From: Alteromonas macleodii
GTDB lineage: Bacteria > Pseudomonadota > Gammaproteobacteria > Enterobacterales > Alteromonadaceae
NCBI RefSeq assembly: GCF_903772925.1
Contig: NZ_LR812090.1
Location: 4,541,902 to 4,605,901, forward strand
Reading direction: 5' to 3'
DNA length: 64,000 nt
A program made the translations under genes and the position numbers. Shown one piece after another: positions 10,049 through 21,339 of the stretch. The notes under the pieces are model-generated. The model had not been told where the DNA came from. It worked only from the letters and a program-made list of their open reading frames with translations, and did not search any database. Position 1 is the first letter of the stretch; each line of letters starts with the position of its first letter.

Positions 10049-10534
10049 GTGAAAACACCGCTTATCACTCGAAAAGGCTATTTAAAGCTTAAACAAGAAC
10101 TGGATTTCTTGTGGCGTGAAGAACGGCCAGAAATCACTCGCAAGGTAACTTGGGCAGCCAGCCTGGGCGATAGGAGTGAGAATGCTGACTACCAATACAA
10201 CAAAAAGAAGCTTCGCGAAATTGACCGTCGAGTTCGTTACTTACGCAAATGCTTAGAGAACCTAAAAGTTGTTGATTACGATCCACAGCAAGAAGGGAAA
10301 GTGTTCTTTGGTGCTTGGGTGGAAATTGAAAACGAATCTGGCGCTGTTATGGAGCTTCGCTTAGTTGGCTATGATGAAATATTTGGCCGTAAGGACTATA
10401 TCTCTATTGATTCACCCATGGCCCGTGCTCTACTTGGCAAAGAAGAGGACGATGAGTTTATTGTTAAAACTGAGGCGGGTACTAAAGAGTGGTGGATAAA
10501 CCGTATTTGGTACGACGCAACAGATAAACTTTGA
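10049..10534 (+). CDS. greB: Transcript cleavage factor GreB
   Basis: A 161-residue GreB. It rescues backtracked RNA polymerase by inserting its coiled coil through the secondary channel and stimulating cleavage of the 3' RNA end. The N-terminal coiled coil (about 1-78) has the tip acidic motif DRSENADYQYNKKKLREIDRRVRYL, with the two acidic residues of the tip visible as D and E. The C-terminal FKBP-like domain has GAWVEIENE, LVGYDE and ISIDSPMARALLGK. The start is GTG at 10049 with AGGA just upstream. The length matches E. coli GreB. It precedes tex, as in other gammaproteobacteria. Confidence 0.95.
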   Translation: MKTPLITRKGYLKLKQELDFLWREERPEITRKVTWAASLGDRSENADYQYNKKKLREIDRRVRYLRKCLENLKVVDYDPQQEGKVFFGAWVEIENESGAVMELRLVGYDEIFGRKDYISIDSPMARALLGKEEDDEFIVKTEAGTKEWWINRIWYDATDKL

Positions 10535-10598
10535 ATAAAGAGATGGTCTTCTTAACTACCCAGTTGTAACACAATGATCAGACGACTTTCCCTACACC

Positions 10599-10627
10599 GC
10601 GGTGATATACTCACCGCTCTTATTTTC
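10599..10627 (+). terminator. Probable weak terminator after greB
   Basis: GCGGTG (10599-10604) pairs with CACCGC (10612-10617) around a 7-base loop, followed by TCTTATTTT. The T-tract is interrupted, so efficiency is doubtful. Confidence 0.45.
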
Positions 10628-10712
10628 ACTACTAACGCTGTGTATGTAAGCCTGTCACACACCGTTTATTCGCCATTGCCTAACGCGAACTTTTAGTATC
10701 TTAGAGCGACTT

Positions 10713-13103
10713 ATGATTACCAATAAAATTGCAGAAGAGCTTAGCGTTCAACCCTCGCAAGTAACTGCCGCAGTAAAACTTCTCGATGAAGGGGCAACCG
10801 TTCCTTTCATTGCCCGATACCGCAAAGAAGTAACCCAAGGCCTTGATGATACGCAGCTGCGTAATCTAGAGCAGCGCTTGACCTACTTACGTGAGCTAGA
10901 AGAACGCCGCGACGTTATTCTTAAATCTATCGAAGAGCAGGGCAAACTAACTGACGAACTTAAAAGCAGCATTGCCGGTGCTGACAGCAAAACAACCCTT
11001 GAAGACTTGTACTTACCGTATAAGCCTCGTCGACGCACTAAAGGACAAATTGCTATCGAAGCAGGTTTAGCGCCACTAGCCGATGCATTGTTTGGCAACC
11101 CTGACACAGACGCTGAAAGCAAAGCGCAAGAGTTTGTAAATGCAGACAACGGCGTTGCTGATACTAAAGCCGCGCTAGAAGGTGCTCGCTATATCCTTAT
11201 GGAAAGGTTTGCTGAAGATGCCGCTTTGCTAGCGAAAGTGCGCCATTACCTTACTGAAAATGCTCACGTAAAAAGTACGGTTGTACCAGGTAAAGAACAA
11301 GAAGCGGCCAAATATAAAGACTATTTTGAACATAGCGAGAAATACAAAAAGGTACCCTCGCATCGCGCATTGGCCATGTTCCGAGGTCGCAATGAAGGCA
11401 TGCTTCATATTCAGCTAGATGCAGATCCACAATCAGAAGAAAAGGGGCCATCTCATTGCGAACACATTATCGCAAGCCACTACGATATCATGCACCGCGG
11501 TCGTGGCGCGGATGATTTCTTAGCTCAGGTTGTGCAGTGGACGTGGAAAATCAAAATTGGTTTACACATGGAAACAGAGCTATTCAGTGCCCTTCGAGAG
11601 CGTGCTGAAGAAGAAGCCATTGAAGTATTTGCTAAAAACTTAAACGACCTGTTGATGGCTGCACCTGCAGGTGCAAAAACCACTATGGGACTAGATCCAG
11701 GTTTAAGAACCGGCGTTAAGGTAGCAGTAGTAGACAGTACAGGTAAGGTGGTAGCAACCAACACCATATTCCCACATGCTCCGCAAAATCAGTGGGATAA
11801 GTCTATTCGCACGCTAACAACCTTGTGCAAACAATACAAAGTAGATTTAATCAGCATTGGCAATGGTACAGGTTCGCGCGAAACAGACAAACTTGTTGGC
11901 GAAATGCTCAAAAACAATAGCGAGCTTACTGCACAAAAAATTATGGTCAGTGAAGCTGGCGCTTCTGTATATTCAGCGTCTGAGCTTGCCTCGAAGGAAC
12001 TGCCTGACCTTGACGTGTCAATTCGCGGCGCGGTGTCTATCGCTCGACGCTTGCAAGACCCACTCGCAGAACTCGTTAAAATTGAGCCTAAAGCCATTGG
12101 TGTAGGCCAATACCAGCACGATGTAAGTCAAAGCCAGCTGGGTAAATCCCTTGACCGTGTTATTGAAGACTGTGTGAACGCCGTTGGCGTTGACCTAAAC
12201 ACCGCATCGCCTGCGCTATTAAGCTATGTATCAGGCTTAAATAAAACTCTAGCGCATAACATTGTTAATTTTAGAGACACCAATGGTGCTTTCCCAGACC
12301 GTAAAGCACTGTTAAAAGTTGAGCGTTTGGGTCCAAAAGCTTTTGAGCAAGCGGCGGGTTTCTTGCGTATTGTAAACGGCACCAACCCACTTGATGCCTC
12401 TGCGGTTCACCCCGAAGCATACCCGGTAGTCGATAAAATTGTAGATACCACTGCGGTTGCAGTTAATGACATTGTCGGCAATACCGAGTTACTTAAAAGC
12501 TTGTCGCCAGATACCTTTACCAGCGATGCATTCGGCTTACCTACCGTTAAAGACATCCTTAAAGAGCTCGACAAGCCAGGTCGTGACCCTCGCCCTGAAT
12601 TTAAAACAGCGGCGTTTAAAGAAGGCGTTGAAACTATTAACGACCTTAAGCCGGGTATGATTTTAGAAGGCGTAGTGAGCAATGTAGCTAACTTTGGCGC
12701 ATTTGTTGATGTGGGCGTGCATCAAGATGGACTGGTACATATCTCTGCATTGACCAACAAGTTTATCTCAGACCCTCGCGAGGTAGTTAAAGCCGGCGAT
12801 ATCGTGAAAGTAAAAGTGCTGGAAGTAGACGTACCGCGTAAGCGTATTTCTTTTACCATGCGCTTAGACGACACACCAAATCAAAGTAATAATGCCGGTG
12901 GCTATAGCTCTTCAAGTAAGGGCTCTTCAGGTAAAGGTGCGAATAACCAAGGCTCAGGTAAAGATCAAAACAAAGGGGCTGGACGTGCCAACGGTAAAGC
13001 AAATCCGCGCTCGAATAAGGGAGGCGGCAATCGCAACAGCCAGCCTCAAAACAGCGCCATGGGCAATGCCTTTGCTGACGCGTTTGCTAAGGCGAAAAAG
13101 TAA
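10713..13103 (+). CDS. tex: RNA-binding transcription accessory protein Tex
   Basis: A 796-residue Tex (YhgF) protein. Domains in order: N-terminal helix-turn-helix core ([34 protein letters not shown]), YqgF/RuvC-like domain with [17 protein letters not shown] at about 328-344, helix-hairpin-helix domain ([22 protein letters not shown]), and an S1 RNA-binding domain at about 648-720 ([24 protein letters not shown]). The last 70 residues are a glycine, serine and asparagine rich basic tail ending in [10 protein letters not shown]. It acts on nucleic acids and transcription in the cytoplasm; the precise reaction is unsettled. A terminator follows at 13141. Confidence 0.96.
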
Positions 13104-13140
13104 ACCCTAGCCATTCATTATCGCTTATTTTGTTTTATAA

Positions 13141-13169
13141 AGGGCTTGTCGCAAGACAGGCCCTTTTTT
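13141..13169 (+). terminator. Intrinsic terminator of tex
   Basis: AGGGCTTGTC (13141-13150) pairs with GACAGGCCCT (13155-13164) with one T-G wobble and a GCAA tetraloop, followed by a T-run. Confidence 0.9.
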
Positions 13170-13499
13170 GTTGCTCTTCCATTTATCCTTTCGCTTTTGC
13201 TACATTAGTTATGGTGCAATTGAGAGTATTAACGCTCAACAATACTTGCGTAAAAAGCATTAATACCAATCCGTATAGTTAAAGATACCGAAACAATGAA
13301 AAGGTGTGGGTCACACCGAAACCGAAGTTCGTATGTTAGTAGCGTTTAACGAAGGTAATGTTGCTCATTTGACCTCAGCCTTTTTCTAGGCAGTACTTTC
13401 GGACGACCATAATGAGTTAACGGCCAACGACCTTTGATGTACGCGTGTTTCATCTAGCTCTACAGCAAAGATCACCTGCCCTAATCAGAGGATGATGTT
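13170..13499. other. Intergenic region before the dual-hydrolase gene
   Basis: No gene is seen in these 330 bases. A short hairpin GGTGTG (13303-13308) with CACACC (13312-13317) around GGT is present without a T-run and could be an operator. GAGGA near 13489 is the ribosome binding site for the gene at 13500. The base composition resembles the rest of the window and no decayed gene could be translated. Confidence 0.5.
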
Positions 13500-15278
13500 A
13501 TGAACTTACCTGTTTCAGAAAGCATGCTAAATGTCAGCGCAGACTTCCCCGACCTTCGGGATCGCTATTACCAACCCAACCTCACCCCGCTTAAGCCTTT
13601 TATCGATCCGCCGGGTAACTTGGGTATATTAGACCAAGGCCAAGACGGCGCCTGTACAGGCTTTGCCTTGGCCGCCACCATAAATTTTATCTATCGCCAA
13701 CAAGGCCGAAAACATACCGTGAGCCCATGGATGCTTTATGCCATGGCAAAGCGTCACGATGAATGGTTGGGCGAAGCCTATGACGGTTCGAGTTGCCGCG
13801 GCGCTATTAAAGGCTGGTATAACAGTGGGGTGTGCAGCGACTCTCTGACAAAAGATATTAATCACAGCAACGAATTTGAAATGACCCTCGCCATAGCTGA
13901 TAACGCCAGTAATCATAGGCTTGGCGCATACTACCGGCTTGAACGGGAAATTAGCGATTTTCATGCTGCACTTAATGAAGTGGGTGTTATTTTTGTGTCA
14001 GCAAGAATACATGAAGGCTGGAAAGACGCCGAGGGCGACGCGATAAAATTAAGGCCTGAGCCCATGGGAGGCCATGCGTTCGCCATTGTTGGCTATAACG
14101 ATGAAGGCTTTTGGATTCAAAATTCGTGGGGTACGGATTGGAAAAAGTCAGGGCTGGCACTCTGGCGATACGATGACTGGGCGTTAAATGTTATGGATGC
14201 TTGGGTGGTGCAACTCGCACTCCCTATTTCAGGTACGGGTACCTACCATCAGGCTACGCGCTCTATCGCACAGGGGCTGTTCTATCGCTCTACACCACGA
14301 GTAAGTATTCAAGATCACTTCGTCCATTTTGATGACGGGCACTTTGATACTAAAAGTAAATATTGGAGCAACAAAAACCACGTCGATACCATTATTGAAA
14401 AGCTCTCTGACAGTAATCATCAGCATGTAATGCTGTACGCGCACGGTGGCTTAAATAGCATTAAAGCCTCGGCTAAACGCATTGCCGCCATGAAAGACAC
14501 CTTTCTTAAAAACGATGTGTACCCCATTCACTTCATGTATGACACAGGCATGCTTGAAGAGCTAAAGGACATTTTGGGCTTTAAGAATGAAGAAATTAGC
14601 GCCAAAGTCGGGGCATTTACCGACTACACCGATCGCATTTTAGAATGGGCGACACGTAAAGTGGGCGGCGCACTGTGGCGTGAAATGAAATCAGACGCTT
14701 GCTCGCCTTTTACCCGTACCACGTCCGACGGCACCTACTTTTTGACCAAGTTAGCTGGCTATCTTAAAAACAACCCAAGGATACAGCTGCATGTTGTGGG
14801 TCATTCGGCAGGCTCTATTTTTCATGCACACAGTCTATCAAGGTTATTCAAAGTTGATGAAAATATAAAAGTAACAAGCCTGCATTTAATGGCCCCAGCC
14901 ATTAGCTACTCACTATTTAACGAAAAGCTTTCGGAGTTTATAGAGGGAGAACATATCAAGTCGACCACGATTTACAACTTATCCGAAGCATTAGAAAAAG
15001 ATGATCACGTGGCGCGTATTTACCAAAAATCATTACTTTATTTAGTATCAAATGCATTTGAGCCTAAACCGGAGATGCCATTATTAGGTATGGCCGTGTT
15101 TAATCAGCCGCTGTCTAACGTAACGTTTGAATACAGCGAAGGAAAAGAAGGTGATGCGACGGCAGCTACATCCCACGGTGGATTTGATAGCGACGTAGAT
15201 ACCATGAACTCGGTACTTTCAGATATCACTGGCGGTACACCTAAATATCCGTTTACAAAGGCGATATTAGATTATTGA
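13500..15278 (+). CDS. Papain-like protease fused to a serine alpha/beta hydrolase
   Basis: A 592-residue protein with two apparent enzyme domains and no signal peptide. Residues about 15-240 are a C1-like papain fold: Gln46 and Cys52 in LDQGQDGACTGFA (the 6-residue Gln-Cys spacing of papain), His192 in MGGHAFAIVGYN, and Asn208 in WIQNSWGTDW. There is no obvious inhibitory propeptide. Residues about 305-592 look like an alpha/beta hydrolase: HGG (315-317) after a hydrophobic strand VMLYA, nucleophile elbow GHSAG with Ser436, and a likely catalytic His559 in TSHGGFDSD. GAGGA supports the start. It is a single transcription unit. The substrate is unknown; domain 1 is confident, domain 2 moderately so. 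Confidence 0.85.
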   Translation: MNLPVSESMLNVSADFPDLRDRYYQPNLTPLKPFIDPPGNLGILDQGQDGACTGFALAATINFIYRQQGRKHTVSPWMLYAMAKRHDEWLGEAYDGSSCRGAIKGWYNSGVCSDSLTKDINHSNEFEMTLAIADNASNHRLGAYYRLEREISDFHAALNEVGVIFVSARIHEGWKDAEGDAIKLRPEPMGGHAFAIVGYNDEGFWIQNSWGTDWKKSGLALWRYDDWALNVMDAWVVQLALPISGTGTYHQATRSIAQGLFYRSTPRVSIQDHFVHFDDGHFDTKSKYWSNKNHVDTIIEKLSDSNHQHVMLYAHGGLNSIKASAKRIAAMKDTFLKNDVYPIHFMYDTGMLEELKDILGFKNEEISAKVGAFTDYTDRILEWATRKVGGALWREMKSDACSPFTRTTSDGTYFLTKLAGYLKNNPRIQLHVVGHSAGSIFHAHSLSRLFKVDENIKVTSLHLMAPAISYSLFNEKLSEFIEGEHIKSTTIYNLSEALEKDDHVARIYQKSLLYLVSNAFEPKPEMPLLGMAVFNQPLSNVTFEYSEGKEGDATAATSHGGFDSDVDTMNSVLSDITGGTPKYPFTKAILDY

Positions 15279-15325
15279 GGCTTGCTGAAGCGAAGAAGCC
15301 TTTGCATAAATGAAAGTGCCGTTCT

Positions 15326-15348
15326 TGCGATTTAGCTCGCAGTTTTTT
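15326..15348 (+). terminator. Probable terminator of the dual-hydrolase gene
   Basis: TGCGA (15326-15330) pairs with TCGCA (15337-15341) around TTTAGC, followed by GTTTTTT. The stem is short. A second, looser hairpin, AGGCTT (15278-15283) with AAGCCT (15296-15301), overlaps the stop codon. Confidence 0.5.
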
Positions 15349-15441
15349 GGGCTAGATCGTGATTTATTCTGTAAGCTAAATTGTTGGTGTAATGTGAAGC
15401 AGCCAGCGCTAACTTGACGCTATTATGCTTGAAGCCGGCTA

Positions 15442-16392
15442 TTATGCTTGGAGAGATATACCTTCTCTTGACGGGGTGTAAGCTTGCAGATAAGCATTTT
15501 GAATGCGGCCTATTCTTGTCTGCATGGCGTCAGGCGCATTTGCCTCTAACCCCTGCGAAGATATAGCGTTTGCGGGGTTAGACGCACTATCCAACACTTC
15601 GTCTGCCGCCGCTCCTATTCTTGGGCCAGTGTTAATTTCGGACTCAGTGATAGTTTCAATACCTGAAACTGTATCGACACTATCAGTTGGAGTCTGCTCT
15701 GTAATAGATTCCACTGTTGGTGGGTTATCAGCTTGCGCTTTAGCAATCTCACTTCGCGCCTCTGTCGCTTTTTGAGATGCCTCTGCGGCCACCTTTAAAT
15801 CTTGCGAAGAAGGCTCAGCTGGTGCGAGCGCTGCGGCGCGCACCTGTTCCATTTTTTGCAGCGTTTCTTCTGGCGTTTTTTCTTCTGAGACGTCAATAGA
15901 CACCTCGCCATCGGTAACATAGCGCTTATTATCTGGGCCTGTAGTGTATTCATATCGCGGTGCACCAGCGTACTGCCCACCTGTTGTCGCATGCGCCTGC
16001 TCGTGAACTCTTACTTCCTGATCGCGAGCTTTTAACTGTTCAATTTCCGAAGCTTCTTGCTTCTCTTGTTGCTGTTGCTGCCTGTCTTTCGCGTCTTGCT
16101 TGCCTGCACTCTCGTCCTGCGCATTGTCTTTTTCTTGCCCAAACACGTTTTGGAAAGCGGCTTGAAGCTCGGTTTGTATTTGAGGACGTTCGTAGGTGAC
16201 AGGAGCTGGCGGCTGACCCGGGCTTTTAGCCTTATCAGTTTCAGAACCTAAACCTTTTTGAGAAGCGCCTTGCTGGGAGTCTGATGCTTGGGGAATAGTT
16301 TCCCGCTGCACGTTATCTCTACGGGCAGATTCTGTATTTATGTTCGCCGTGGGATAAGCAATGGCGTTAAGGATTGGCGTTACTATATTCAC
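15442..16392 (-). CDS. SprA-related putative metalloprotease
   Basis: A 316-residue protein of the SprA-related family (also called putative metalloprotease CJM1_0395 family). The family core is at about 118-165: LKARDQEVRVHEQAHATTGG, in which H130, E131 and H134 form an HExxH zinc motif, then GAPRYEYTTGPDNKRYVTDGEVSID. Both flanks are low-complexity, glutamine, serine and alanine rich, and look disordered (RQQQQQEKQE; ATEARSEIAKAQ). There is no signal peptide. Catalysis has not been shown for this family as far as I know. It starts 14 bases after the rod-like gene at 16407, so the two form an operon. Confidence 0.85.
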   Translation of the reverse strand: MNIVTPILNAIAYPTANINTESARRDNVQRETIPQASDSQQGASQKGLGSETDKAKSPGQPPAPVTYERPQIQTELQAAFQNVFGQEKDNAQDESAGKQDAKDRQQQQQEKQEASEIEQLKARDQEVRVHEQAHATTGGQYAGAPRYEYTTGPDNKRYVTDGEVSIDVSEEKTPEETLQKMEQVRAAALAPAEPSSQDLKVAAEASQKATEARSEIAKAQADNPPTVESITEQTPTDSVDTVSGIETITESEINTGPRIGAAADEVLDSASNPANAISSQGLEANAPDAMQTRIGRIQNAYLQAYTPSREGISLQA

Positions 16393-16406
16393 CGTACCTG
16401 CTCCAC

Positions 16407-16724
16407 TTAAGCCAATACGTCAATGATAGTGCCAAGCATCTCGTCGGCCACCCCTAAAACTTTGGCAGAAGCTTGGGCATTACGCTCGTTTACATTAAGC
16501 GCAATTAAGTCGTCGGTTAAACGCGTAGTGCTAGAAGCGGAGTTAGAAGAAGCGTTGTTTGTTTCGCTGCTAGCCACTGTAGGTTGAGCGGGTGCAATCG
16601 CATCTTCAGCTGTGCGCTGAGCAATATTTGCCGCTGCCTGCGATACGCCGTCGCTTGCACTTTGTAACCCATACTGAGCCGCTGCAAATGCAGAGCCTGC
16701 ACTTAAACCATCAATATTAGTCAT
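16407..16724 (-). CDS. Mini flagellar-rod-like protein
   Basis: A 105-residue protein not assigned to a named family. Its two ends resemble the two terminal helices of flagellar axial proteins (FlgB, FlgC, FlgG): the N-terminus SAFAAAQYGLQSASDGVSQAAANIA has the pattern of the rod-protein N-terminal helix ending in a NIA-like motif, and the C-terminus LIALNVNERNAQASAKVLGVADEMLGTIIDVLA has the pattern of the C-terminal helix. The middle (about 45-68) is a short serine, asparagine and alanine linker instead of a folded domain. No other flagellar gene is in the window. It is the first gene of a two-gene operon with the SprA-related gene. The resemblance is from reading only. Confidence 0.7.
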   Translation of the reverse strand: MTNIDGLSAGSAFAAAQYGLQSASDGVSQAAANIAQRTAEDAIAPAQPTVASSETNNASSNSASSTTRLTDDLIALNVNERNAQASAKVLGVADEMLGTIIDVLA

Positions 16725-16900
16725 ACACTACCCCTAACCTCTCATGTGCAATTATTGACCAATTTCACACAAATGGAAAGACATGTATCACACACTGCCA
16801 TTAACTTATTGTAAGCAGGCGACTTTTAATTAGCTGTAACGAAAGAAAAAGCTTCAAACCACTGATTAATAGCAGTTTGAAGCCCTGTTAAGGCGTTAGA

Positions 16901-17710
16901 TCAAGACGCTTTCTGTTGGTAAATTCCCGCAGCAAAACGAAATAGAATATCGGCGGTTTGCTGAGGATGAGAAATAAACGGTGCATGGGAGGCGTGTGGC
17001 AGTACGACGGTATCAGCTTGCGGATGGAGCTCGCAAATTCGGTCTATACCGCTTGTAGGCACCAAACTATCTAATCTGCCGTACAATCGTAATGTAGGCG
17101 TAGTTATGCGTCCTACATCGTGTCGCATGTCTTCAGTAGACAATATACGTAAGCCTTTCTTAAGCGCTTCCTCAGCGGGTTCTGGAAATTGAGTGACCTG
17201 CTCTCTTATTGCCTTAATATCTTGCTTTGCCGTTTCACTACCCATAGCCTGAATTGCCAAAAAGCGTTCGAGTGTCTTTTGGTAATTCTTCTCCAGCTGT
17301 GTTTCAAACATAGTAAGTAAATCAGCCGCAATGCCTGGCCAACAAGGTCCAGCTATAAAACGAGGCGTTGAAGCAATAGTAACCAGTCCATTAAGCTTTT
17401 CTGGTGCTAATAACGCGAGCTTTTGAGCTACCAATCCACCTAGTGACCATCCAACCAACACGCACTGGTCTGGCAGTTTGTCTACAATAGCTTGGGCAAG
17501 GGACTCAACATTGTAAGGTGAAGGCACGATTTCCGCGTTTTCTCCAAATCCAGGAAGGTCGATGGTGGTAACGCGAAAATTATCACTAAGGTAAGGGATA
17601 AAGGATGTGAACGCGCCGCTGTTCATACCCCAACCGTGAAGAAATACAACATCTACGCCTGTACCCTGAGTACGGGTGACAAGCTCGCCATTTGTATGCA
17701 AAATTTCCAT
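16901..17710 (-). CDS. bioH: Pimeloyl-ACP methyl ester esterase BioH
   Basis: A 269-residue alpha/beta hydrolase of the BioH type, which removes the methyl group from pimeloyl-ACP methyl ester and so ends the disguised fatty-acid stage of biotin synthesis. Landmarks: FLHGWGMNSG (23-32), nucleophile elbow VGWSLGGL with Ser89, acid Asp214 in YGRLDSLVP, and His242 in PHASHAPF. The GWSLGG and HGWGMN motifs are typical of BioH. The start follows an excellent AAGGAGG. It diverges from comF across 99 bases, an arrangement also seen in E. coli (bioH/gntX). An inverted repeat CGTGTTT/AAACACG (17732-17752) lies in that gap. Confidence 0.92.
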   Translation of the reverse strand: MEILHTNGELVTRTQGTGVDVVFLHGWGMNSGAFTSFIPYLSDNFRVTTIDLPGFGENAEIVPSPYNVESLAQAIVDKLPDQCVLVGWSLGGLVAQKLALLAPEKLNGLVTIASTPRFIAGPCWPGIAADLLTMFETQLEKNYQKTLERFLAIQAMGSETAKQDIKAIREQVTQFPEPAEEALKKGLRILSTEDMRHDVGRITTPTLRLYGRLDSLVPTSGIDRICELHPQADTVVLPHASHAPFISHPQQTADILFRFAAGIYQQKAS

Positions 17711-17809
17711 TTACACCTCCTTAGGCAGAAACGTGTTTTTTGAGGAAACACGAAATGATGAAAATAGGTCGACGTTCGACAATTCAAGGAAGTTGATGGA
17801 ATCAACACT

Positions 17810-18523
17810 ATGAACCTTTCATGCTTGCTATGTTATCAGGCAAGTCCTACGCCAGTATGTCACTGGTGTGAAGATGACATGTTTTTTTTCGAAGCCTCAT
17901 TACATGGGAGTAACCTACTTCAATACGGCCCTGTGGCAGGCCACGTCAAGCATAGCCACTATGACGCACTATCCGTGCTCGGGCTCCATACATGGCCCAT
18001 GTCATCGCTGGTTCACCAGTTAAAGTTTACGCATTCACTGACGGCAGGGAAAGTATTAAGTAACTGGTTTGTCCATAAAAAGCGACAGTGCACTCTATCA
18101 GTGCCAGATGTACTGCTTCCGGTTCCAATTAGTGCATGGAGGCTTGCAAAGCGCCACTACAACCAAGCTACGCTTTTGTGTGAAAGCTTAAGCCGCGAAT
18201 TAGGTATACCCATTAACCAAGCATGGGCTAGCCGCAAAGGCTTTAGTGTGCAGCACCACTTATCCAAGCTGGCCAGAGCAGAGAACGCAAACCGTGTATT
18301 TAATTTATCTAAGCAGTGTATCGATGAGGAGATAGCAACGACGCACGGTAATAAAGATGGCAGCGATTTCACCGTGGCGATAGTGGATGACGTGCTTACT
18401 ACGGGTGTGACCGTAAACACATTAAGTAAAAGACTTAAGCAGCGCTACCCAAATATACAGATTCAAGTGTGGGCAGCGGTATTTACGCCGCCACCCAAAA
18501 GCAGCTTATTGCTAAAGGCGTAA
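17810..18523 (+). CDS. comF: ComF family protein
   Basis: A 237-residue ComF/GntX-type protein. The N-terminus has four cysteines in CLLC and CHWC (5, 8, 17, 20), a probable zinc finger. The C-terminal half is a phosphoribosyltransferase-like domain with LLPVPISAWRLAKRHYNQA (about 102-120) and the PRPP-loop motif VAIVDDVLTTGVT (189-201). ComF homologues are needed for DNA uptake in competent bacteria and for use of DNA as nutrient. The yifB/comM gene is also in this window. The length is normal. It diverges from bioH. Confidence 0.9.
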   Translation: MNLSCLLCYQASPTPVCHWCEDDMFFFEASLHGSNLLQYGPVAGHVKHSHYDALSVLGLHTWPMSSLVHQLKFTHSLTAGKVLSNWFVHKKRQCTLSVPDVLLPVPISAWRLAKRHYNQATLLCESLSRELGIPINQAWASRKGFSVQHHLSKLARAENANRVFNLSKQCIDEEIATTHGNKDGSDFTVAIVDDVLTTGVTVNTLSKRLKQRYPNIQIQVWAAVFTPPPKSSLLLKA

Positions 18524-18590
18524 GGCTAAAAAAAGGAATATAGAAAAATGCGCTGTTAGGCGCGGCATGCACCGCGCCTCATAAACTGAT

Positions 18591-21248
18591 TTAACGAATA
18601 AAATGCGCCTGGTAAATTGCATTAGCTAGCATTTTGTTCGTGCCGTACCAGTAGCCTCTAAATTGCGTATTGTCGGTAAAACCAATGACCACACCACGTC
18701 CCATCTTCTGAGTTGTCACCGCGGTCGATTCAGCCATTAACGCAACCATTCTTTTATCACTAAACCCTGCCACAAGGGGCTCGTCGGTGTAGCGTGCTGG
18801 TGTGACAAACGGCGAACTACTTGCTTCCACGATCATATTGTTCGTTTTAAACATAGGTAGCGTGTCATCGTTATAGCCATAAAAAAGTGGATGAGTATTA
18901 TCAATATCCGCTTCAAATACAGCGCCAGCCACCAACTTTCTGGCATAAAGCGACGAGCCGTCTTCGTAGCTTAAATCGCTTTCATCGAAGGCATTATCTA
19001 TCGTCTCTCTACTGATAATGTCCGCATCTAGCCACTTGTGTTTAGCGAAGTAACGCAGTGCAGATTTCTGGCCTACAATCACGCCACCGGCTTTCACCCA
19101 GTCTTCAATTTTCGCTCTGTCGTTCTCTGTAAAGCGATAGCGACCGCTTGGAAATAGAATGTGAGTGTATGTGATGCTAGGGTCATTAAGCGCACTTAAT
19201 AGATGTTGTTGCTCAACAATGCTTGCAGATAAGCCGACTTTTGTATCGAAGTAGTGCCACATTTCTCCTACTTCGTATTCACTCGTCCCTTCCCCCCCTA
19301 CAATTAATACCTGCGGTAAGCCCACTGGCGCCATACTTCGGCTACCCAAATCATTACCTGTCGGCGTTAATCCACTGCTCAAGCTAAACACAGGTACCTG
19401 AAGTTGTTGCTGCGCTTTGCTCAAAATGGCTACTAAGTTTTCGGGCTGTCCCAAACCTTTAGGCACCACAATACTACCGGGCTGAAGGTCAACGTTTTTG
19501 CCATCGTATTTAATAGCGGAAAACGCTTTTTCACTGCTTCGCACTTTCACACCGGCTTCCAGTAGGGTTTGAAGCATGGCGGGCGCGTAATAGTGCTGCC
19601 ATGAAAACGCGTAGGCATAAGCGTTTTCATGAATATTATTAAGTGTTGCTTGTGCTAGAGCCGAGTTGTCACTTAGCGCAAGGCTTCGCACATCGCCCTT
19701 GTCTAAAGCCGCGTAGTCCAAGTTAAATGCCATAGCTAAATTCCACGTTGAAACATCATAGAAGGTGTTATTTTCAAATGATGTTTGCGTAGAAAAAATT
19801 GATTTTACTAGACGGTATTGAGGTTGGTTAGTAGGGATAAATATTGCCTTCCCAGCCTTGTAGCTAATCTTGTTCGCATCGAAGTTCTCTGTAAGCACTT
19901 CATATAAAATGTGATGCTGCTCAAGTAATGCGATAAATGCGTTAAAACGAGCGGTATCATTCGATGCACTTACCACAAATCCAGCCTGTGCATCTTGCTT
20001 GGCCAAAGACTGCGTGCTCTTCACAAAGCCCGATTGGTAATCAAGGATTGCAGCCTTATTTGCCAACGCGCCCCTAAAGGTACTCAGAGACGTGGTAATT
20101 TGGTTCGCTATAGTGTCTTTGAAAGCAAGCTTGCCGTTTATAGAGTCTTGCAGGTGTCCCCGTGAACTGGCCTGTTCAAACAGTATACCCACGCTACCGT
20201 GTAAATCTGGATAGGTAGACCCTTTACCAGCGTAGAAATCGTCGAATGCTTCTTCGGTGAAATATAGCTCGCCTTGTTCGTCAAATGCAGCCGCGTGATA
20301 ATGCGCAAGCGCTTCGGTTAAGGTGACGTTCTCGTCTGGCGTTAAAGGGTTTTTGCGCGAGCGTACGCCGGGCTGAAAGAAATAGGTACTGTCTGTGCCC
20401 ATTTCATGAAAATCGGTCAGAATATGTGGCCGCCATTTATGAAACTGTTTAATACGTGCCTGCGACTCTGGGTGCGCCAGCAATAGCCAGTCGCGATTTA
20501 AATCGAACCAGTAGTGATTTGTTCTGCCTGACGGCCACCCCTCGTCATGTTCACGGTGGCGGCTGTCAGAAACTAACTGCTTGCCTTTGTGCATATTTGC
20601 CCACTGAGCAAAACGAGAGAGTCCATCGGGGTTGAAAGATGGATCAAACAGCACAATATTGTTGTTCAACAAGGCATCGATTTCTTCGCCTTCAGCGGCG
20701 GCTAAGTAATAAGCCAGCGCTAGCGAAGCATTGGTACCGGAAGGTTCGTTACCGTGAATACTGTAGCCCATGTAAAAAATCAGTGGAGCGTCGTTACCTA
20801 CTTTTTTGCCACTTTCCATGGCATCAATGTGCTGCTTCCTCATGACTTCAATGTTGTTTCTGTTTGACGGTGCAGTGATAGTCATAAGTAAAAGCGGGCG
20901 ATTTTCGTGGGTACGGCCAGTTTCTTCGATGGTAATGCGGTCAGACTTCTCGGCAAGAAGCTGCATATAGTTTACGACTTGGTCGTGACGTACGTGCCAC
21001 TCACCAATGTTGGAACCAAGTACAGATTCAGGCGTAGGAATAGCTGGGTTGTAGGATACTGTATCAGGTAAGTATGCTGTAACTGGCTGCCCACCTGTAT
21101 CAGGGGTAATACTAACCACTGATGATAAGGCTGGCTGTGCCAATGCTTGCTGGCTGGTCGTCGCTCCAAGGCCGATAGTGCCAAGCGCCAACAATAAAGC
21201 GAGTGATAATGGGTTCTTTTTGGCGGAGTTTTTTAGTTTCGCTAACAT
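18591..21248 (-). CDS. Secreted M14-family zinc carboxypeptidase
   Basis: An 885-residue protein. The start at 21248 is preferred to 21308 because GGGAAG lies upstream and a normal Sec signal follows (MLAKLKNSAKKNPLSLALLLALGTIG, cleavage near ALAQ-PA). The M14 peptidase domain occupies about residues 70-400: zinc ligands His165 and Glu168 in YSIHGNEPSG, substrate-binding FDPSFNPDG and FDLNRDW, and His281 in TDFHEMGTD. The C-terminal half contains a class I glutamine-amidotransferase-like fold region (VLIVGGEGTSEYEVGEMWHYFD; FPSGRYRF; GGVIVGQKSALRYF). The probable role is periplasmic or extracellular peptide degradation. It is alone on its strand, diverging from nfuA. Confidence 0.9.
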   Translation of the reverse strand: MLAKLKNSAKKNPLSLALLLALGTIGLGATTSQQALAQPALSSVVSITPDTGGQPVTAYLPDTVSYNPAIPTPESVLGSNIGEWHVRHDQVVNYMQLLAEKSDRITIEETGRTHENRPLLLMTITAPSNRNNIEVMRKQHIDAMESGKKVGNDAPLIFYMGYSIHGNEPSGTNASLALAYYLAAAEGEEIDALLNNNIVLFDPSFNPDGLSRFAQWANMHKGKQLVSDSRHREHDEGWPSGRTNHYWFDLNRDWLLLAHPESQARIKQFHKWRPHILTDFHEMGTDSTYFFQPGVRSRKNPLTPDENVTLTEALAHYHAAAFDEQGELYFTEEAFDDFYAGKGSTYPDLHGSVGILFEQASSRGHLQDSINGKLAFKDTIANQITTSLSTFRGALANKAAILDYQSGFVKSTQSLAKQDAQAGFVVSASNDTARFNAFIALLEQHHILYEVLTENFDANKISYKAGKAIFIPTNQPQYRLVKSIFSTQTSFENNTFYDVSTWNLAMAFNLDYAALDKGDVRSLALSDNSALAQATLNNIHENAYAYAFSWQHYYAPAMLQTLLEAGVKVRSSEKAFSAIKYDGKNVDLQPGSIVVPKGLGQPENLVAILSKAQQQLQVPVFSLSSGLTPTGNDLGSRSMAPVGLPQVLIVGGEGTSEYEVGEMWHYFDTKVGLSASIVEQQHLLSALNDPSITYTHILFPSGRYRFTENDRAKIEDWVKAGGVIVGQKSALRYFAKHKWLDADIISRETIDNAFDESDLSYEDGSSLYARKLVAGAVFEADIDNTHPLFYGYNDDTLPMFKTNNMIVEASSSPFVTPARYTDEPLVAGFSDKRMVALMAESTAVTTQKMGRGVVIGFTDNTQFRGYWYGTNKMLANAIYQAHFIR

Positions 21249-21339
21249 AGCGCTTCCCGTCTTGTTGTTATGGTTGAGAGTAATAGCGGTGTACGCCACT
21301 CTCAACAAATTCGATTCACTGGAATTATTTATTTAATTA

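Follow-up and report, generated by a model that had tools for sequence, protein, structure and literature searches.

Protease and esterase combinations in bacteria

Combinations of a protease with a lipase or an alpha/beta hydrolase have been described in bacterial caspase systems. A passage in Asplund-Samuelsson et al. (2012) presents a caspase–GDSL lipase–Amidase_2 protein of Chitinophaga pinensis as "a highly destructive weapon" (PMC3501461). Passages in Kaur et al. (2020) describe the caspases at the N-terminus of VMAP proteins as always neighboring an alpha/beta-hydrolase gene, the two being read as operating together, and suggest that peptidoglycan may be the target of some EAD1-linked lysozyme and papain-like domains (PMC7159879). 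DUF900 appears in a passage of PMC11878206 as a family of unknown function that has a helix inserted after strand 7. The locus considered here, at positions 13500 to 15278 of a 64,000-nucleotide stretch of the Alteromonas macleodii chromosome (the window), encodes a fusion of a papain-like protease with an alpha/beta hydrolase whose relatives are repeatedly linked to cell wall hydrolases.

Two hydrolases in one chain

Both halves of the fusion pass their Pfam cut-offs. Peptidase_C1 matches residues 43–220 with 25.2 bits (cut-off 20.7), and DUF900 (PF05990) matches residues 416–492 with 29.7 bits (cut-off 20.5), the latter match covering only positions 81–159 of the 232 in the profile. NCBIfam gives nothing above cut-off for the 592-residue protein. 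The features of the gene are listed below, with conservation taken from an alignment of 63 rows, including the window protein, at 33–92% identity to it (19 of the 62 relatives lie below 45%), and from the 56 two-half loci defined further on.

13500 to 15278, + strand: papain/alpha-beta-hydrolase fusion gene, an ATG-start open reading frame of 592 residues, also recognized by Pfam and by its ratio of nonsynonymous to synonymous substitution rates (dN/dS)
13539 to 14219, + strand: papain-like domain (C1A, xylellain-type), residues 14–240
13635 to 13637, + strand: codon of Gln46, oxyanion hole, invariant in 63 of 63 rows and 56 of 56 loci
13653 to 13655, + strand: codon of Cys52, nucleophile, invariant in 63 of 63 rows and 56 of 56 loci
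14073 to 14075, + strand: codon of His192, invariant in 63 of 63 rows and 56 of 56 loci
14121 to 14123, + strand: codon of Asn208, invariant in 63 of 63 rows and 56 of 56 loci
14220 to 14282, + strand: linker, residues 241–261, predicted disordered, with a predicted local distance difference test score (pLDDT) below 50 at residues 243–261
14283 to 15275, + strand: alpha/beta hydrolase domain, residues 262–592, with inserted long helices (about 351–404)
14442 to 14450, + strand: HGG, residues 315–317, probable oxyanion-hole motif (H315 in 60, G316 in 63, and G317 in 62 of 63 rows)
14805 to 14807, + strand: codon of Ser436 in GHSAG, nucleophile, in 63 of 63 rows; Gly in 7 of 56 loci
14994 to 15005, + strand: Glu499 to Asp502, candidate catalytic acids after the strand at 486–494, both in 63 of 63 rows
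15174 to 15176, + strand: codon of His559, in all 58 rows having a letter there; five rows are gapped

The papain half has the fold and the Gln, Cys, His, and Asn order of family C1A. Its best solved relative by sequence is xylellain of Xylella fastidiosa, over residues 14–237 only. On an inhibitory propeptide, of which the sequence-only reading saw none, the signs are mixed: a long N-terminal extension is absent, but residues 15–21 (DxxDxRD) are conserved and align with the N-terminal part of xylellain. The N-terminal domain is predicted to cut proteins.

The whole-chain model has a mean pLDDT of 86.7 and a predicted template modeling score (pTM) of 0.85. Because the matches listed for the whole-chain fold cover the papain half only, the hydrolase half was folded and compared alone, which gave a mean pLDDT of 93.1, a pTM of 0.92, an alpha/beta hydrolase fold, and fold neighbors that include lipases and phospholipases. 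Ser436, the acids at 499 and 502, and His559 are conserved in the manner of a Ser–acid–His triad, in which the acid is probably Glu499 or Asp502. The sequence-only reading had named Gln46, Cys52, His192, Asn208, Ser436, HGG, and His559, and all of these proved correct and conserved. Its view of the protein as two complete hydrolases in one chain is likewise borne out, the second half folding as it had proposed, and so is the lack of a visible leader.

When eight Alteromonas copies are compared, dN/dS comes to 0.018 in the papain half and 0.039 in the hydrolase half, ratios that are rough because dS is near 1.3. Both halves are under strong purifying selection, and both enzymes are kept.

A large family with a fixed architecture

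The sequence-only reading knew of no family with this domain order. As a statement of rarity this does not hold: 6824 of 7998 scored candidates, namely those sharing the most words with the query, match at E up to 1e-5, and 116 of the 120 listed homologs are 591–642 residues long. A rare or chance fusion is rejected in favor of a fixed architecture in a large family, which occurs in Gamma-, Alpha-, and Betaproteobacteria, in cyanobacteria, and in one Nitrospinia metagenome-assembled genome. As to whether the family is a described one, it already carries the NCBI name "C1 family peptidase", while no study of a papain–DUF900 fusion was found in the literature searched, and the fusion appears unstudied. 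The current name hides half of a large protein family.

Phage or plasmid cargo is not supported as a general explanation, as far as phage, IMG/VR, and plasmid collections show. Three of 50,697 phage records match, weakly and in the papain half only. Among 19 confirmed IMG/VR loci, one (L121) has both halves and the others have the papain half. A viral contig of 245 kb encodes the papain half alone (L123, 7548–8735), preceded by about 150 unidentified N-terminal residues. Of 72,556 plasmid records, 29 match, the match spanning 80% or more of the query in 10 cases, and at least 16 of the 29 belong to Sinorhizobium, Rhizobium, or Mesorhizobium. In a viral library the top matches are papain-like proteins, some of which are named peptidoglycan-binding or muramidase.

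Links to wall hydrolases

Relatives were compared over 56 loci that have both halves, made up of 46 fetched loci and 10 plasmid loci added later. The Alteromonas copies L001–L011 and L014–L019 are represented by L013, and half-only loci (e.g., L031, L033, L111–L114, L120, and L122–L139) were dropped before counting. A likely wall hydrolase is linked to the fusion in 17 of the 56, a count neither complete nor unbiased since neighbors were run only in part against Pfam and some genes lie near contig ends. In four loci it is fused, in 11 it is adjacent on the same strand, in one it is adjacent and divergent, and in one it lies inside an adjacent protein. The linked kinds are GH108, GH19, N-acetylmuramidase, Amidase_2, CHAP, and M15. 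Two further loci stand outside the 17: L026, whose Amidase_2 homolog lies at a distance of 2.1 kb, and L179, where a PG_binding_1 gene is second downstream.

Nine long relatives and neighbors were put to Pfam. In L096, an N-acetylmuramidase domain (PF11860) precedes the papain domain, and L100 has a GH19 domain. In L106, a PG_binding_1 match at the cut-off is accompanied by a GH19 match below it, and L103 is a further GH19-type fusion that falls below the Pfam cut-off but matches the N-terminus of L106 at E 2.8e-64; the assignment of GH19 in these two rests on their likeness to each other and to L100. Among the half-only loci, L111 has Amidase_2 and a caspase on either side of a homolog of the hydrolase half, and L033 has a trypsin ahead of the papain domain. 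The neighbor of L110 combines a GDSL lipase, a caspase, and an M15 peptidase. The N-terminal "extensions" of L021 (1079 residues) and L094 (1350 residues) yield only Peptidase_C1 by Pfam and are not counted as fusions because they resemble translation running on through non-coding frames of GC-rich DNA. In L113 (343–3137), an Amidase_2–hydrolase frame and a caspase part in an overlapping frame look like a broken relative of L111.

The muramidase form is an established three-enzyme architecture and no freak, because PF11860 is present in 118 of the best 120 matches to the papain–hydrolase part of L096; those named among the 120 come from Lysobacter, Luteimonas, Pseudoxanthomonas, and near relatives.

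Other links are by operon. The gene directly downstream of the fusion in L087, L089, and L090 belongs to the GH108 family and has a peptidoglycan-binding domain, although the L089 copy looks broken. A test less affected by the choice of loci looked for GH108 genome-wide in 40 carriers, 12 from the genus and 28 from outside it, with 13 further genomes set aside because their matches were weak, partial, or split. Nine of the 40 have a GH108 gene. In five of these nine, the only GH108 gene of the genome sits immediately downstream of the fusion and in the same orientation; in the other four it lies elsewhere. The five linked carriers belong to three taxonomic families but group as a single clade on the tree (support 87). 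The locus of the window's kind, L013, shares a 10-row clade with the GH108-linked loci (support 94, not starred) and is itself without GH108. Clustering of the neighbors of 45 loci yields GH108 as the operon partner that could be identified; the other shared families come from close relatives or are unidentified.

Directly upstream of the fusion lie a GH19 gene in L119, L175, and L176 (plasmid), a CHAP gene in L177 and L178 (plasmid), and an Amidase_2/PG_binding_1 gene in L180 (plasmid). In L118 (plasmid), a divergent PG_binding_1 gene has a sub-threshold CHAP match. On the tree of the 56 loci, the wall-hydrolase label requires eight changes, at least seven of them forced by well-supported (starred) branches, compared with 14.8 in shuffles. 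The label is clustered, yet it has been gained or lost several times.

Proposed role and its weak points

The relatives read as a three-part set, protease plus esterase plus wall hydrolase, whose components can be exchanged. The three jobs (protease, esterase/lipase, and wall hydrolase) would be combined by fusion or by operon, with unrelated families filling each job in different bacteria. It is tentatively proposed that the fusion is a leaderless cell-dismantling enzyme that acts in, or after the lysis of, its own cell. The C-terminal serine hydrolase would cut ester bonds, most likely those of membrane lipids, and thereby damage the membrane from the inside. The protease half would digest proteins, and the wall hydrolase, where present, would open the wall. 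The producing cell or its remains would thus be broken down when the cell is dying or infected. Among the three roles offered by the sequence-only reading, "toxin-like effector" fits the relatives best, since these have wall hydrolases, caspases, and SGNH lipases in the same chain or next to it; a narrow amide/ester two-step metabolic enzyme is not favored.

Several observations weigh against self-dismantling and would suit a routine degradative enzyme, which would scavenge lipoproteins or debris inside the cell or once released by lysis and would take no part in killing or defense. Neighbors were inspected, a check that the sequence-only reading had called for: relatives are linked to wall hydrolases, but the window copy stands alone. 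Its locus has no wall-enzyme neighbor, being flanked by Tex and an SprA-related gene, and GH108 is found in none of the 12 genus carriers, its own genome included. The gene is lone, well conserved, and chromosomal, and it sits amid housekeeping genes. Furthermore, no wall partner was found in 39 of the 56 loci, and the fusion is widespread. The window copy thus works at most like part of a three-enzyme set.

A routine enzyme is nevertheless unlikely. The distribution of the fusion is patchy, with whole-genome matches in 12 of 59 genomes of the genus (own included), 21 of 370 genomes at class level, and 23 of 397 at phylum level, the class and phylum counts including partial matches. The recurring association with wall hydrolases, caspases, and a YLATT gene also argues against a routine role, and storing an unrestrained papain and a wall enzyme in the cytoplasm would make little sense for scavenging.

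Export, secretion, and defense

By a simple hydropathy test, which is no signal-peptide predictor, neither the window protein nor any of its 120 listed homologs has a hydrophobic N-terminal stretch; nor, by the same test, do 117 of the 120 muramidase-form homologs. The sheath gene VipB (PF05943) of the type VI secretion system (T6SS) is absent from the window genome (G000) and from the other 11 genus carriers, and it occurs in six of the 40 carriers overall. A T6SS effector is therefore unsupported for the window genome. An argument that L096 has no room for a C-terminal secretion domain was dropped, the significant hydrolase match ending at residue 819 of 887.

An exported enzyme for killing or predation would leave the intact cell by an unrecognized route and attack neighbors, with the wall hydrolases of the relatives directed at the wall of the victim. 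An enzyme mixture that strikes wall, membrane, and protein together would be apt for killing, and the muramidase–papain–hydrolase form, judged by those of the best 120 matches that carry names, occurs commonly in Lysobacter, Luteimonas, and Pseudoxanthomonas. Lysobacter is known for lysing other microbes. However, no leader is visible, 34 of the 40 carriers lack the T6SS sheath gene, and the neighbor clustering, in which shared families are identified in part, reveals no obvious short immunity-like partner. An exported killer is thus unlikely. Action on the own cell is favored over export because leaders are missing, T6SS is missing in most carriers, and caspase systems are the nearest parallels.

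No PADLOC model matches the window protein at E 0.01, so a known anti-phage defense system was set aside. No EAD, MoxR, vWA, or STAND domain was found in the window protein or its seven neighbors (10049 to 21308).

A clade with a decayed hydrolase triad

All four papain residues are kept in 56 of 56 loci, and the Ser, Glu, Asp, and His of the hydrolase in 48. In L182, a Gly aligned at position 502 is perhaps a misalignment. In the remaining seven loci (L110, L119, and L175–L179), Ser is replaced by Gly, Asp by Val or Leu, and His by Gln. The hydrolase letters of this clade rest on a weakly similar alignment, in which position 499 of L119 is T or D depending on the alignment. L175–L178 were fetched for their likeness to the L119 clade after the triad loss had been seen.

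A gene for an SGNH/GDSL lipase joined to a caspase lies directly downstream on the same strand in seven of the seven decayed loci versus none of the 49 others. In L179 the fusion gene extends to the end of the circular plasmid record; the SGNH–caspase frame is at the other end (E 4e-94 and 6e-23) and is followed by the PG_binding_1 gene, which has a sub-threshold CHAP match. This locus was the last to be checked, when six others already showed the pattern, and the tree labels date from before its SGNH–caspase gene was seen. Triad loss is one event on the tree, and the seven loci therefore count as a single observation, with L179 leaving confidence unchanged because it belongs to the same clade. 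As a single observation it is a telling one: the hydrolase is decayed where a second esterase is present, and the protease is kept. The clade offers a natural experiment on which activity is needed. Outside the clade, L032 has an SGNH–caspase gene on the other strand with three genes between, and a YLATT protein also near, and L101 and L102 have an SGNH–trypsin protein as the second gene upstream; the triads of all three are intact.

Retention of the papain residues in the seven loci that lost the triad indicates that the protease has work of its own. This bears on the notion of a protease-controlled esterase, in which the papain half would cut the disordered linker and so mature or release the hydrolase, the two halves being a switch and its output rather than parallel weapons. 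The disordered stretch at 243–261 would be compatible with such control, as would the constant pairing of VMAP caspases with an alpha/beta-hydrolase gene in the passage of PMC7159879 already noted. Yet the linker varies widely in length and sequence among relatives, and no conserved cut site stands out. Such a mechanism is the least likely of the alternatives, and dismantling of the own cell by two parallel activities is retained as the tentative choice.

The locus and its transcription signals

The window genome is a single contig of 4.67 Mb whose nearest named relatives are Alteromonas. Tex lies on one side of the fusion gene and the SprA-related gene, on the opposite strand, on the other. 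The seven neighbors between 10049 and 21308 are GreA/GreB, Tex, the SprA-related protein, a 105-residue protein with no match, an alpha/beta hydrolase, a sub-threshold phosphoribosyltransferase, and Peptidase_M14; no defense, secretion, or wall gene is among them. Rfam and tRNA scans of the window gave no matches. Two terminator-like sites bracket the gene:

13139 to 13166, + strand: terminator-like hairpin between tex and the fusion gene, with a 12-pair stem and a T tail
15325 to 15362, + strand: terminator-like hairpin 3′ of the fusion gene, with a 15-pair stem

The description of the gene as alone with its own terminator fits, because such sites follow both the upstream gene and the fusion gene. 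Overall, the region has nine terminator-like sites versus 3.1 in shuffles and no sigma-70-type promoter versus 4.4 in shuffles.

Within the genus, tex is present in 58 of 59 genomes. Of 30 tex loci fetched, nine (own included) have the fusion directly after tex, 18 lack the fusion and pass from tex to the gene that in the window lies downstream of the fusion, and three, G001 and G021 among them, show neither pattern. The fusion gene comes and goes as a unit in the genus. About 41 kb separates tex from the fusion gene in G001 (C2:317808–358732) and in G021 (C1:4474915–4515835; partly L172–L174), compared with about 300–420 bp in other directly linked genus carriers; this stretch is perhaps an island inserted at the same spot in both.

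Other neighbors of relatives

Genes for animal-type haem peroxidases lie beside the fusion in L101 (11013–15119), L102 (4910–9017), and L179 (2314–5905), and one lies second downstream on the other strand in L180 (8753–10378). Near the peroxidase loci are SGNH–trypsin genes (L101 and L102) and genes for an S8 peptidase and a PAP2 phosphatase (L179). FGE-sulfatase/SUMF1-like genes occur near the fusion in L095 (11205–12221), L093 (11133–12050), L107 (1–4418), and L177 (1955–4000); according to a passage in PMC3501461, this domain ranks fifth among the most widespread partner domains of prokaryotic caspases.

A protein of about 580 residues with no Pfam match is encoded directly upstream on the same strand in L024 (4083–5849) and L183 (4101–5834), near-identical loci in which this may be plain synteny. 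An operon-like stretch of a Mesorhizobium plasmid (L031, 5194–12669) encodes a standalone homolog of the hydrolase half, a caspase, a PLD protein with a trypsin-like stretch, and a trypsin. Adjacent genes elsewhere are seemingly unrelated: cytochrome c biogenesis (L095), topoisomerase (L108), acyl-CoA dehydrogenase (L022), PfkB and pectinesterase (L115), glycosyltransferase/methyltransferase (L107), a BTAD regulator (L093), an MscS channel (L091), and tRNA nucleotidyltransferase (L029).

Comparison with known systems

A broader interpretation, possible though doubtful, is that the family belongs to a widespread, hitherto undescribed modular cell-dismantling system, cytoplasmic and leaderless, that would serve as a bacterial counterpart of the lysosomal arsenal in self-lysis or in response to infection, the window protein being its minimal two-enzyme form. 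In this proposal, one slot would hold papain, caspase, or trypsin; a second, an alpha/beta hydrolase or SGNH enzyme; and a third, GH108, GH19, N-acetylmuramidase, Amidase_2, CHAP, or M15, with a haem peroxidase sometimes added. If the relatives do form one set with interchangeable parts, a role that can be tested would follow for thousands of unstudied proteins, and bacterial cell death or killing would include an execution stage hitting wall, membrane, and protein together.

Each half on its own has a described relative from which the fusion departs. Xylellain (PDB 3ois) is also a C1A papain-like protease, but its solved chain of 268 residues is a single protease domain with no hydrolase half. 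The DUF900 proteins in the cited passage of PMC11878206 are alphaproteobacterial, and one has an N-terminal membrane helix; here, the domain forms the second half of a soluble-looking gammaproteobacterial fusion.

As in the VMAP ternary conflict systems outlined in PMC7159879, a protease and an alpha/beta hydrolase go together, and the caspase-paired hydrolase of L031 is homologous to the hydrolase half of the fusion (E 9e-22 against an Alteromonas copy). Unlike those systems, the window protein and its seven neighbors are without MoxR, vWA, EAD, or STAND domains.

Compared with a multi-enzyme lytic set, the window protein has a protease and an esterase-like enzyme in one chain; a wall hydrolase in the same chain or operon is absent from the window locus and present in 17 of the 56 relatives. 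Some relatives, combining papain, hydrolase, and wall enzyme, resemble the C. pinensis protein of PMC3501461, which as described there has protease, lipase, and amidase in one chain. That protein uses a caspase and a GDSL lipase, whereas papain and an alpha/beta hydrolase take their place here, and the window copy has no wall enzyme. By this analogy, the papain–hydrolase family looks like another, larger branch of the caspase–lipase–amidase idea.
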